This document shows positions 40,374-59,049 of a stretch of 64,000 nt of DNA, piece after piece; position 1 is the stretch's first letter; the number at the start of each line of letters is the position of its first letter. The notes beneath the pieces are model-generated. The model ran no database searches and was not told where the DNA came from. It worked only from the letters and a program-made list of their open reading frames with translations. The stretch is from the IMG/VR virus record IMGVR_UViG_3300020084_000003, positions 62,001-126,000 of that record; one strand, written 5' to 3'. The translations under genes were made by a program, and so were the position numbers. The DNA is from a virus.

Positions 40374-41483
40374 TTAGAACATTGGACTGTCTGGAACAGT
40401 AGTCGCAATCTCAGTATAGTGTAATAGTTCTAGTTTATTCACTACACCATCTGTTACTCTAATTGTTCCGTATCGTTTGAACCATGTTGAATAAATTCTG
40501 TCTAGAAAGATTTTAAGCTTTTCTTTATCTTGTTCAGATGCTTCCATTTCATCTGATACGCCTAGAAGAATTACCTCTTCAACCATTTCATGGTCAAACT
40601 TGATATGCTCAATGCCTGTTTTTGCTTCCATATATTTGTTAGTAATTCCGACTAATGAAAGATATGATATCGTGAGAATATCCCATTCAAGATAAGTCAT
40701 ACCAAGTTGGTCTTCATCTGAATTTGAAATGCCTAATCCGTCCGTAGGGACAACGCGCCAGAACTTTTCGGGCAGACCTAGCTCTTGTGCAATTACAGGA
40801 ATTTCTGTGGATTTGAAGAAGCTTTGTAGAGGGGCAAAGTCTCCCACATCACCGTTCACTGTGAATAAGCCTGCTGAATATTCTGAGAAATTGTCAGTGC
40901 TTACCACAATGCCATTTACAGACTTGGCAGCATCATACAGGTATGTCATACGCAGTCTAGCATATACATTTCCCCTACGTATATTGTAATCACTGGAATT
41001 TTCAGAATCTAATCCAATATCATCTACCATAACACTTGCTGCATAAGTCAAATCTTTGTAGTTGAGTTTAATGCCAAGAAATTCACACACTTCTTTTGCA
41101 AGATCGACTTCTTTTGGTTTTTGATTAATAGGAAGGGTATATGCGTGAATTTTAATGTCTGAGTTTTTTGCTTGTGCTGCTTTAAGAACGGCTAGAACGG
41201 TTGCGGAATCTGCGCCACCTGAAACGCCTACAACAAAGTTTGTAATGCCCGTTGCATCAACATAATCTATAACTGAACTTACAACATAATCCGTAATATC
41301 TTGCTCATGTCCATGATAAAAATATAGTGGTTTACAAACTACGCTTTTTAGCATATGGTGCATCCAAGGGCTTAGTGGTTCTGCTTCATTCTGTCGGGAG
41401 TTGTAAAGAATTCGTTCAAAAATCCCGTTGTCATATTCGATTGCAGCATTGGTAGCATTTTCTAGCATAGATTTTACATCCAT
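40374..41483 (-). CDS. nadE: NAD synthetase (NadE)
   Basis: A 369-aa ATP-dependent NAD synthetase that amidates nicotinic acid adenine dinucleotide to NAD. The PP-loop SGGADS is at residues 88-93. The NIRRGNVYARLRM segment (167-179), STDNFSEYSAGLFTVNGDVG (195-214) with following DFAPL, and VPTDGLG are all diagnostic. There is no N-terminal glutaminase domain, so ammonia is the likely nitrogen donor. It is longer than usual (about 275 aa) through an 80-residue N-terminal extension. The frame runs 5 codons upstream to a TTG, but ATG at 41483 has AAAGGAAG at the right distance and is chosen. The SLOG-like gene lies 11 bp upstream. Confidence 0.93.
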   Translation of the reverse strand: MDVKSMLENATNAAIEYDNGIFERILYNSRQNEAEPLSPWMHHMLKSVVCKPLYFYHGHEQDITDYVVSSVIDYVDATGITNFVVGVSGGADSATVLAVLKAAQAKNSDIKIHAYTLPINQKPKEVDLAKEVCEFLGIKLNYKDLTYAASVMVDDIGLDSENSSDYNIRRGNVYARLRMTYLYDAAKSVNGIVVSTDNFSEYSAGLFTVNGDVGDFAPLQSFFKSTEIPVIAQELGLPEKFWRVVPTDGLGISNSDEDQLGMTYLEWDILTISYLSLVGITNKYMEAKTGIEHIKFDHEMVEEVILLGVSDEMEASEQDKEKLKIFLDRIYSTWFKRYGTIRVTDGVVNKLELLHYTEIATTVPDSPMF

Positions 41484-41494
41484 GTGTCTTCCTT

Positions 41495-41995
41495 TCAAAT
41501 AAAATTTTCTAAGTAGTATTTAATCTCTGGTATCTGAGTCGCAAAATTAAATACTGGAATGTTATACAACTTGGCGATGCGAATCGCTTGGGCTGTCCCA
41601 CCTGTCATCTCACCATTTGGCGTCCAGCACAATATGAAAGATGCAGGCGTTTTAAGATCATCTCCTAACACCTGATTTGCATTTCTTGACATATATAACT
41701 GACCGTCTTCGTTGAGCCTGTTTGGTTTCGGATGCAGCTTTTTGGTGTAGTAGTCGTTAAAGGGTGGAATGATATAATCCTTACCGTTGACGAATTTTTT
41801 CTGAAACCCATCGAACGGAAGGTATATCCGTCTACCCTCTGGTGGTGCGCCTTCTTCAAAGAAAGAATCTGCACCAGCCGCACCGCCAGACCTTAGTATA
41901 TAACCTTTCTCATAAAGAAAAGTTGCAGTGTTTGCCATGATAGATTTGAACTTAGTAGGAGTCGCGCGACTTCCTATTCCTGCATAATACTTCAT
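41495..41995 (-). CDS. SLOG/DprA-like Rossmann-fold nucleotide-binding protein
   Basis: A 166-aa protein with the opening YAGIGSRATP and RSGGAAGADSFFEEGA (about residues 35-50), the paired motifs of the SLOG (SMF/DprA-LOG) superfamily. The later SFILCWTPNGEMTGGTAQAI motif (about 119-138) completes the nucleotide-binding site. SLOG proteins bind nucleotides or NAD-derived molecules such as ADP-ribose, and some are nucleotide hydrolases. Placement immediately upstream of nadE, in the same transcript, suggests a link to NAD metabolites; this is inference. Its start overlaps the stop of the PTH2-like gene (ATGA). Confidence 0.8.
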   Translation of the reverse strand: MKYYAGIGSRATPTKFKSIMANTATFLYEKGYILRSGGAAGADSFFEEGAPPEGRRIYLPFDGFQKKFVNGKDYIIPPFNDYYTKKLHPKPNRLNEDGQLYMSRNANQVLGDDLKTPASFILCWTPNGEMTGGTAQAIRIAKLYNIPVFNFATQIPEIKYYLENFI

Positions 41996-57080: not shown

Positions 57081-57088
57081 TATTTATA
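57081..57088 (-). promoter_or_regulatory. T4-type late promoter box for the methyltransferase gene
   Basis: TATAAATA on the - strand, 32 bp upstream of the methyltransferase start. Confidence 0.75.
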
Positions 57089-57108
57089 ACAGAATCTAGT
57101 AAATTATG

Positions 57109-57141
57109 ATTGGGCGAAGCCCAATTTTGCGAAGCAAAATT
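57109..57141. repeat. Two overlapping GCGAAGC mini-hairpins
   Basis: Stem 1 is ATTGGGC/GCCCAAT (57109-57115 and 57119-57125) and stem 2 is AATTTTGC/GCAAAATT (57123-57130 and 57134-57141). Both have a GAA loop closed by C-G, the very stable GCGAAGC form, and share three bases, so both full stems cannot form together. Confidence 0.8.
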
Positions 57142-57142
57142 T

Positions 57143-57208
57143 CATGATTCTTCTTACTTGACAGGACTCATGAAACCCTATAGAGTCTTATAAGAATCAT
57201 GAGTCCTA
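57143..57208. repeat. Nested, competing inverted repeats
   Basis: CATGATTCTT (57143-57152) pairs with AAGAATCATG (57192-57201), and AGGACTCATGA (57163-57173) pairs with TCATGAGTCCT (57198-57208). The right arms overlap, so the two stems are mutually exclusive. Confidence 0.8.
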
Positions 57209-57234
57209 TAATTTAATCACGAATCACAAGATTC

Positions 57235-57262
57235 ATTATATCACAGGTTGTATTTTTGTCAA
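57235..57262 (-). promoter_or_regulatory. Sigma70 promoter, leftward (methyltransferase unit)
   Basis: On the - strand TTGACA (57257-57262), 16-bp spacer, TATAAT (57235-57240). Both hexamers are perfect consensus. Confidence 0.82.
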
Positions 57263-57277
57263 GTCCCTAAATAAACC

Positions 57278-57305
57278 TTGACATATTGTCGCAGTGTGAT
57301 AATAT
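57278..57305 (+). promoter_or_regulatory. Sigma70 promoter, rightward (pnuC-nadR unit)
   Basis: TTGACA (57278-57283), 16-bp spacer, TAATAT (57300-57305). The -35 faces the leftward -35 as an inverted repeat (TGTCAAG...CTTGACA), giving a compact divergent promoter. GANTC sites follow directly. Confidence 0.75.
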
Positions 57306-57341
57306 GGACTCAATCGAATCACTATAACAAGGAGTTTTGTT

Positions 57342-57995
57342 ATGACTATAAAGAAAGACGATTTTCAATTAAATATTATGCTAATTTGCGTAGGTTTTAT
57401 TCTTACGGTTTTAACTCATTATATTTGTGTCATGTTGGGAGTTCAACTACCAGACATTAATATGCTTGAGTTTGTTGCTGTTGCTACTAGCTATACATGC
57501 ACTATCATGTTCGCTATGCAGAAGAGAGCAGCATACTTTTACGGAATTATCAGCACGTTTTTTCTGTGCTGGTTCTTTGCAACACAAGGAATTTTCGCGT
57601 TAGCAATTTTTAACGGTGTTCTAGTTATCAGTTTAATTTACGGATACTGGCGTTGGGGTCCAGATGGACGACCGATTCCAGTTACAAATATCAAAGGTTT
57701 CAAATCATTTGCCGGTTACGGAATGTTTACAGTTATTATCGCAGGTTTATTCCTTCTGCTTGTGGGCGCTTCTTCCAAGATCGACATTTTTCTGGCATCG
57801 GCTTCCGCAACCGCGCAGCTTATGCTAGACAATAAAAAGCTGGAAAACTGGCTTGTATGGATGGTCATTAACGTGTTCTCTATCGTTTTCTTCATTCAAA
57901 GCGGCTTCTGGCTATTGGCAATTCAATTTATGCTATTCTTGCTGAACGCTATTTTCGCGTATTTCTCTTGGAGAAAGGGTCTAGTAAATGTCTAA
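57342..57995 (+). CDS. pnuC: Nicotinamide riboside transporter PnuC
   Basis: A 217-aa polytopic membrane protein with seven likely membrane segments. PnuC motifs include the QKRAAYFYGIISTFFLCWFF region, an IYGYWRWGPDG segment, and SASATAQLMLDNKKLENWLV, which carries the substrate-site pattern with W-x-x-W. PnuC imports nicotinamide riboside by facilitated diffusion, trapped by phosphorylation through NadR, encoded next. The gene has a strong RBS (AAGGAG) and overlaps nadR by 8 bp. Known in phages such as KVP40 with NAD-salvage genes. Confidence 0.92.
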   Translation: MTIKKDDFQLNIMLICVGFILTVLTHYICVMLGVQLPDINMLEFVAVATSYTCTIMFAMQKRAAYFYGIISTFFLCWFFATQGIFALAIFNGVLVISLIYGYWRWGPDGRPIPVTNIKGFKSFAGYGMFTVIIAGLFLLLVGASSKIDIFLASASATAQLMLDNKKLENWLVWMVINVFSIVFFIQSGFWLLAIQFMLFLLNAIFAYFSWRKGLVNV

Positions 57996-59049
57996 AGATG
58001 AAAAAATTCATGGCCTAATTCTCGGAACGTTCATGCCCTTTCATAAGGGGCATGAACTACTAATCAACTTCGGCAAAGAATATACTGAACAATTTGGGCG
58101 TGGTCGCCTTCTGGTAATTCTTTCATCTCGCAGCAATGAACCCATTTCAGGTAATATGCGTCTGGATGCAATCAGAAAGACTTTTGGAAACGATGTGTCG
58201 ATTTTTCATCATATTGACGATGATGCTCCACAAAATCCAAAAGACAAAGATGACGTTAAATTCTGGGAATACTGGAAGAAAGTTATCACCAAAGCTGCCA
58301 TTCAAAGTAATTTAAATCCATACGCAATAAAGTATGTATTTTCATCTGAAAACTATGGTGACAAAGTAGCAGAAATTATTGATGCAACTCATGTCAAATT
58401 TGACCAAGCTAGAACGGCTGTCCACGTAAGCGGAACGCAAATCAGAAACAACCCTTTGTCAAATTACCAACACATGAACGCGCACATGATTACAAATCTT
58501 CGTCGCAGGTATGTTTTGTTTGGAGCCGAATCGGTTGGCAAGACTACTTCTCTAAAATATCTAGGCAATAGTCACTACGGGTCACATACCCTACCTGAAT
58601 ATGCCAGACCGTTTTTAGAAGAATTGGAAGACAAGTCTCCGTCCGAAAAGAACATGTGCAGTATCTTCATGGCGCAGCATTCTATGGAAATTGCCGCAAT
58701 GAAACAAGTCGGCGGTTCTCTACTGACGTTTATGGATACTGATATCATGTCCACTTTTGGATATGCAAGGCTGGTAAAGATGAAAACAAATCAGTTTGAA
58801 CATTTGGTTCCAATTGATTTTAGAAGAACGTATTTCGTTCTGTCACAAGATGAGGTTCCTTTTGAAAAGGACATTCTCAGATATGGTGGCGATGTAAGAG
58901 AAACCAAGGATAGTTTTTGGATCAATCTGCTAGAAGAATTTAATCTAAGATACTTTGTTGTCAAAGGCGATTTCAGTAGCAGGATGGACCAAATTAACGC
59001 TATAATAGCAAAAGATTTCAAGAAGGACTTTCACTTTAACAGAGAGTAG
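57988..59049 (+). CDS. nadR: NadR-like bifunctional NMN adenylyltransferase / nicotinamide riboside kinase
   Basis: A 353-aa protein. The N-terminal nucleotidyltransferase has GTFMPFHKGH (residues 13-22) and the SGTQIR motif (148-153), as in NMN adenylyltransferases. The C-terminal kinase has P-loop GAESVGKTT (179-187) and EYARPFLEE (204-212), diagnostic of the NadR riboside-kinase domain. There is no N-terminal DNA-binding helix-turn-helix as in enteric NadR, so it is purely enzymatic. With PnuC it converts imported nicotinamide riboside to NMN and then NAD. Confidence 0.93.
   Translation: MSKDEKIHGLILGTFMPFHKGHELLINFGKEYTEQFGRGRLLVILSSRSNEPISGNMRLDAIRKTFGNDVSIFHHIDDDAPQNPKDKDDVKFWEYWKKVITKAAIQSNLNPYAIKYVFSSENYGDKVAEIIDATHVKFDQARTAVHVSGTQIRNNPLSNYQHMNAHMITNLRRRYVLFGAESVGKTTSLKYLGNSHYGSHTLPEYARPFLEELEDKSPSEKNMCSIFMAQHSMEIAAMKQVGGSLLTFMDTDIMSTFGYARLVKMKTNQFEHLVPIDFRRTYFVLSQDEVPFEKDILRYGGDVRETKDSFWINLLEEFNLRYFVVKGDFSSRMDQINAIIAKDFKKDFHFNRE

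Follow-up and report, generated by a model that had tools for sequence, protein, structure and literature searches.

A dense GANTC cluster between divergent promoters of a T4-like phage as a candidate control region linked to GcrA-type early promoters

Ten GANTC sites lie between two divergent predicted promoters, one directed toward a DNA methyltransferase gene and the other toward genes for a PnuC-like transporter and a NadR-like enzyme (Table 1). The locus belongs to a 284,776-bp IMG/VR virus genome; the window is the whole 64,000-nt stretch that was analysed, i.e., bases 62,001-126,000 of that record, and positions are window positions unless marked as genome positions. The genome carries the features of T4-like membership, namely gp23, gp17, gp39, an RNA ligase and late promoters (TATAAATA). 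Its capsid protein, large terminase and topoisomerase are T4-like; the terminase is nearest to those of Sinorhizobium phages, and the relatives of the phage point to a host that is probably alphaproteobacterial. Outside the window, 32 tRNA genes were found, most of them clustered together at the record's right end. An NAD synthetase-like ORF, recognized by eye at 40374-41498, suggests together with PnuC and NadR a phage NAD-salvage set. Such sets also occur in other large T4-like phages.

Table 1. Features in and around the GANTC cluster, in window positions
Feature	Position	Strand	Remarks
DNA methyltransferase, 181 aa	56503..57048	-	NPPW; phrog_799
T4-type late promoter	57081..57088	-	TATAAATA; before the methyltransferase gene
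GANTC cluster, ten sites	57092..57320	none	Site count and shuffle test; starts at 57092, 57146, 57165, 57183, 57194, 57201, 57221, 57230, 57307, 57316
Paired GCGAAGC stem-loops	57109..57139	+	Cores 57114-57120 and 57129-57135
Five GANTC in P_left leader	57146..57205	-	57146, 57165, 57183, 57194, 57201
TGATTCG, exact GcrA-type motif	57220..57226	-	GANTC at +4..+8 of P_left; motif from PMC7987155
GANTC overlapping -6..-2 of P_left	57230..57234	-	
P_left, TTGACA-16-TATAAT, extended -10	57235..57262	-	12/12 consensus match; toward the methyltransferase gene; predicted +1 ~57228
P_right, TTGACA-16-TAATAT	57278..57305	+	10/12 consensus match; toward pnuC-nadR; predicted +1 ~57312
Two GANTC, -5..-1 and +5..+9 of P_right	57307..57321	+	Second is CGAATCA (reverse of TGATTCG)
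PnuC-like nicotinamide mononucleotide transporter	57342..57995	+	First gene of P_right
NadR-like nicotinamide-nucleotide adenylyltransferase/kinase	57988..59049	+	

The original prediction, made from the sequence alone, was of ten GANTC within 229 bp, and all ten are in place, far above shuffle expectation. Dinucleotide shuffles of the 229 bp (n = 5,000) gave a mean of 1.37 sites and a maximum of 6, none of the 5,000 reaching ten, and the densest 229-bp window in whole-genome shuffles (n = 30) held 5-7. The two divergent sigma70 promoters that it placed amid the sites were likewise recovered. It had also cautioned that repeat arms duplicate some sites; inverted repeats are indeed present, but the site sequences and the central base (A/T in six, G/C in four) still vary. 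Four of the ten sites have the context YGAKTCK, and only two are exact TGATTCG, one at each promoter. The offset of the TGATTCG at P_left is of the same class as at the other early promoters of the phage.

In a profile search, the 181-aa protein matches phrog_799 (E = 4.7e-27), and phiLM21_p027 hits this family too, across the corresponding region (E = 3e-61). The latter methylates GANTC, as shown by HinfI protection, and the 179-aa GANTC-specific enzymes of Paracoccus prophages carry NPPW/F/Y (PMC5537653). By alignment, the window methylase has the catalytic NPPW and the SAM-binding EPFCGRG; because it is 24% identical to phiLM21_p027, its GANTC specificity is a prediction. Its homologues in the phage collection belong, with few exceptions, to alphaproteobacterial phages. 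The late promoter (TATAAATA) that also precedes the gene suggests that it may be expressed both early and late. A phmmer search of the methylase against PDB returned no match, and a single-sequence fold gave a poor model (pLDDT 44), which was discarded.

Throughout the genome, GANTC is mildly rare (861 sites, 0.78 of the dinucleotide expectation). A count of GANTC in intergenic regions had been proposed as a check on the cluster, and with a simple greedy gene call the sites are 2.5-fold denser between genes than within them (6.5/kb vs. 2.6/kb). This bias mirrors that of CcrM-bearing Alphaproteobacteria, in which GANTC is rare overall and over-represented between genes (PMC3973325). No match to the Pfam-type CcrM domain (N6_N4_Mtase, PF01555), to GcrA or to ParB_N was detectable in the phage genome. 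The motif CCNGG is strongly avoided genome-wide, at 0.46-0.47 of expectation under every model tried.

Promoters of the form TTGAC-N15-18-GATATTCT number 43 in the genome, nearly all at 127-163 kb, a stretch of many short genes. They are considered early on account of their sigma70 form and of the absence of the late motif. In 42 of the 43, GANTC lies just downstream of the -10 element, within about 37 nt, and every other palindromic xyNzw pentamer is confined to at most 10 of the 43 promoter windows. Start sites were predicted, not mapped, and all offsets count from the predicted +1: forward TGATTCG starts at +3 to +6 or, most often, at +15, and reverse sites lie mostly at +7/+8. The sequences between the -10 element and GANTC are dissimilar among promoters (mean identity 0.27-0.46), which suggests that the position of GANTC has been selected and that the promoters are not recent copies. 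The cluster follows the same rule, with exact TGATTCG or CGAATCA at +4..+8 of P_left and +5..+9 of P_right. A GANTC between -40 and +40 of the predicted sigma70 start is found at 42 of the 43 promoters and at both promoters of the cluster. In a second, leftward promoter class, GANTC is fused to the -35 element (TTGACGAATC), and about 10 of these 15 have another GANTC at the -10 element, some 25 bp farther on. A generic sigma70 scan gave 43 GANTC/kb in the ten nucleotides from the start, 16/kb in the next ten and 0-12/kb in other bins; the reversed-genome control, with only six hits, had none in the start-site bin. T4-type late promoters are not enriched for GANTC (5/32 have one within 40 nt).

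The early region has further peculiarities. Its G+C content at 127-163 kb is 0.40-0.46, vs. about 0.37, and it has recurring stem-loops (GTGTGGCAGAAATGTCACACC) that are probably terminators. KOPS-like GGGNAGGG is 18 times denser at genome 126-164 kb than elsewhere (14 vs. 5). Ten perfect bacterial parS sites (TGTTTCACGTGAAACA) lie within 13 kb at genome 128266-140799, with a further one, carrying a single mismatch, at genome 147891. This sequence is bound by an alphaproteobacterial ParB (PMC6650430), and recruitment or titration of host ParB is possible. The possibility that the early region is chimeric was also weighed; phage families (HNH, g100-like, T4 RNA ligase) lie inside it and T4-like genes flank it.

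The sequence around the promoter GANTC sites corresponds to a known regulatory motif. In Caulobacter crescentus, GcrA activates promoters with methylated GANTC in the context TGATTCG, or more broadly YGAKTCK (PMC7987155; also PMC8725594). TGATTCG was derived from the phage promoters before the comparison with the GcrA literature. YGAKTCK, on either strand, is present at 37 of the 42 early promoters vs. 37% of coding GANTC (P ~1e-11), and exact TGATTCG at 22 of the 42 vs. 10% (P ~1e-11). GcrA works through sigma70, and its regulon has been defined by sites within 40 bp of starts (PMC7987155), as would suit early promoters transcribed by the polymerase of the host. The GcrA of Brevundimonas has almost no extended motif, and even Brevundimonas and Caulobacter thus do not share this context (PMC7987155).

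At least nine GANTC per 229 bp are reached at three places only, ~9.7 kb (C1), the present cluster at 119.1 kb (C2) and ~156.2-156.5 kb (C3, partly inside coding sequence). A similar density elsewhere in the genome would originally have counted against a special role for the cluster; it does occur, at 9.7 kb and 156.5 kb, but with the same architecture, which speaks for a repeated element and against chance. All three arrays hold two GCGAAGC cores close together, an arrangement unique to them in this genome. C1 and C2 are alignable across the element, and the stem-loop pair of C1 (genome 9755-9792) keeps its base pairing with stem bases different from those of C2. C3 is a weaker copy, whose stem-loops fold no better than shuffles. 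To the right of every array, a near-consensus leftward promoter can be read from the sequence (C1, TTGACT-17-TATAAC; C3, TTGACA-16-TATAAT), so that transcripts would traverse the array and its stem-loops into a minus-strand gene. The genes after the other arrays are topoisomerase gp39-like and a small ORF. The arrays are AT-rich (about 70%), and successive GANTC spacings are phased at ~10.3 bp (R = 0.72; 0.05% of random spacings). The middle base is G or C in 4/10 and 6/17 array sites, a freedom to be expected of a reader that recognizes GANTC itself. YGAKTCK is not enriched among array sites (8/17, 4/10), and the purpose of the arrays may thus differ from that of the promoter sites; they may sense methylation, let the methylase regulate itself or time an origin.

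On the leftward strand, each stem-loop pair starts with ATGAAA (genome 9755-9792, window 57104-57142 and genome 156470-156512). Candidate short leader ORFs begin there in C1 (MKNASRFRASPVIII) and C2 (MKFCFAKLGFAQS), and that of C3 continues into a 124-aa ORF. The element could be a leader peptide, an attenuator or a DNA hairpin; a clear U-tract as in a canonical terminator is absent from the stem-loops on this strand.

Related phages had been named as a place to look for conservation, and the system is absent there, among fairly distant relatives only. phiM12 lacks GANTC arrays, parS sites and promoters of this type, the syntenic region of Atu_ph07 has no GANTC cluster, and 20 IMG/VR relatives by capsid or topoisomerase yielded one isolated promoter match and no parS. 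Contig L018, the only close relative to turn up, matches over 9.8 kb with 100% identity and thus says nothing about conservation. Scans for the promoter-GANTC pattern gave one match per stretch, with none repeated in IMG/VR and among the matches listed for GTDB; such single matches are read as chance. A phased-array scan returned mostly tandem repeats and unrelated sequences.

From the observed sites, their positions, the motif match and the methylase gene with its family, we infer that GANTC is methylated and bound by GcrA, that the outcome is activation and not repression, and what the arrays are for. With moderate confidence, we propose that GANTC methylation, read by host GcrA with sigma70, gates early promoters throughout the genome. 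The cluster would be one element of this system and would control both the putative phage GANTC methyltransferase gene and, in the opposite direction, the pnuC-nadR operon. GANTC near +1, at fixed and helically phased positions, would offer YGAKTCK to host GcrA. The sites would be N6-methylated by host CcrM or by phage methylase made in the previous cell, and at a methylated site GcrA bound to sigma70 would help host polymerase to open the early promoter. In the extra phased arrays, methylation state or occupancy by methylase or GcrA may tune local transcription. The methylation-sensed switch first suggested for the cluster is hence the best-supported reading, given the early-promoter enrichment, the GcrA motif and the methylase family, with methylation itself presumed.

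A more elaborate, rather doubtful proposal is that of an epigenetic early-to-late timer in a genome that the host reads as an origin-proximal chromosome segment. Virion DNA would carry GANTC methylation from the previous host, laid down by late-expressed phage methylase, and GcrA-sigma70 would fire the early promoters without delay. Replication would then outpace methylation, so that newly copied genomes would lack the mark and their early promoters would be silent; the methylase would put the mark back in time for packaging. The ten host-type parS, with no ParB, would lead the host to read the genome as origin-proximal.

The chief rival of methylation gating is that GANTC/TGATTCG is the operator of a repressor, from the phage or the host, by which early genes are turned off, with methylation irrelevant and the cluster acting as a multi-operator silencer. 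The stoperators of mycobacteriophage L5 are a model for such a silencer. The promoter sites overlap the start and the initial transcribed region at variable offsets and several spacings and in both orientations, an arrangement that would suit a repressor as well, and helical phasing fits cooperative binding. However, the arrays do not fix the central base (G/C in 4/10 and 6/17), as expected of a reader of GANTC, the surrounding sequence coincides with the GcrA motif already described, the gene next to the cluster is a member of a GANTC-methylase family, and ten sampled early ORFs gave no recognized DNA-binding regulator. We consider the repressor unlikely.

That the cluster might be a replication origin was the other possibility raised at the outset, and it can be extended to all three arrays with their paired stem-loops, GANTC timing initiation by hemimethylation as Dam/GATC does at E. 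coli oriC. Origin-like features are the phased GANTC of the arrays, their AT-richness (about 70%), their dispersal over three places, each time downstream of a leftward promoter, and the paired GCGAAGC stem-loops, which fold strongly in two of three copies. Against this, DnaA and CtrA sites, examined along with KOPS-like motifs for a common origin signature, are not enriched in the early region (the KOPS-like GGGNAGGG is), no cumulative-skew extremum falls at the cluster (119 kb), the stem-loops of the third copy fold poorly, and the GANTC seen at about 42 early promoters would have no explanation. T4-type origins require neither DnaA boxes nor a skew extremum. We think this role improbable.

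Some restriction-modification methylases repress themselves, and the cluster could be a matter of local autoregulation only, the methylase binding or methylating its own leader array. Seven of the ten sites do lie within the transcribed methylase leader, but equivalent arrays precede unrelated genes (topoisomerase gp39-like and a small ORF) and GANTC marks most early promoters, which makes this very unlikely. Chance, compositional clustering or a tandem-repeat artefact can be dismissed almost entirely: many other GANTC arrays in IMG/VR are simple tandem repeats, but the shuffles rule out chance density, the cluster sites are not tandem copies, and C1 recurs identically in another contig.

Parallels to methylation gating were sought among known systems. 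The GATC clusters of E. coli oriC and dnaA (Dam/SeqA) hold about ten methylation sites in 230-250 bp, a similar number per length. The present sites, phased near one helical turn, differ in being GANTC rather than GATC, in the lack of SeqA or DnaA-box evidence and in the adjacent promoters. Caulobacter GcrA/CcrM sigma70 promoters (PMC3667746, PMC7987155) share GANTC within 40 bp of the start, YGAKTCK/TGATTCG and intergenic enrichment; here, in contrast, almost all promoters of one early class in a lytic-type phage bear the site, at a few fixed phased positions, with presumed binding and methylation. Phage CcrM mimics (phiLM21_p027 and Paracoccus prophage enzymes, PMC5537653; PhiOC_p213, PMC7139368) are similarly small, carry NPP(W/F) and come from alphaproteobacterial phages, whereas the window gene, of predicted specificity, stands behind a dense array of presumed targets and is preceded by promoters of both kinds, early and late. 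CtrA-controlled phages (PMC9437464) are comparable as alphaproteobacterial phages obeying a host cell-cycle regulator. The scan of alphaproteobacterial phages in that study revealed no positional asymmetry of GcrA sites, whereas GcrA-type sites here are strongly concentrated at early promoters, and the present genome thus stands out. phiCbK-like phages carry a GcrA homologue (PMC3556154), which is likewise phage involvement with the GcrA system, but there it is the protein and here the sites, without detectable GcrA protein.

Phage CcrM mimics, CtrA sites in phages and methylation-controlled promoters are each already known singly; their combination into a whole-genome early-promoter code with GcrA-type sites was not found in the literature searched. 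Alphaproteobacterial phages have long been known to carry GANTC methylases, the purpose of which, according to PMC7139368, remains to be elucidated, and this genome suggests a concrete one, with a methylase of the family and with early promoters whose design centres on the GcrA motif in its presumably methylated form. If this is true, phage genes would be timed, through methylation state, by both the cell cycle of the host and the previous host, and dozens of natural promoters would be available for learning the position rules of GcrA. A site that the host methylates in timing its cell cycle is built into nearly all recognizable early promoters of one class and stands at tenfold density before the phage's methylase gene, which suggests that the phage uses the methylation code of its host for its early genes.
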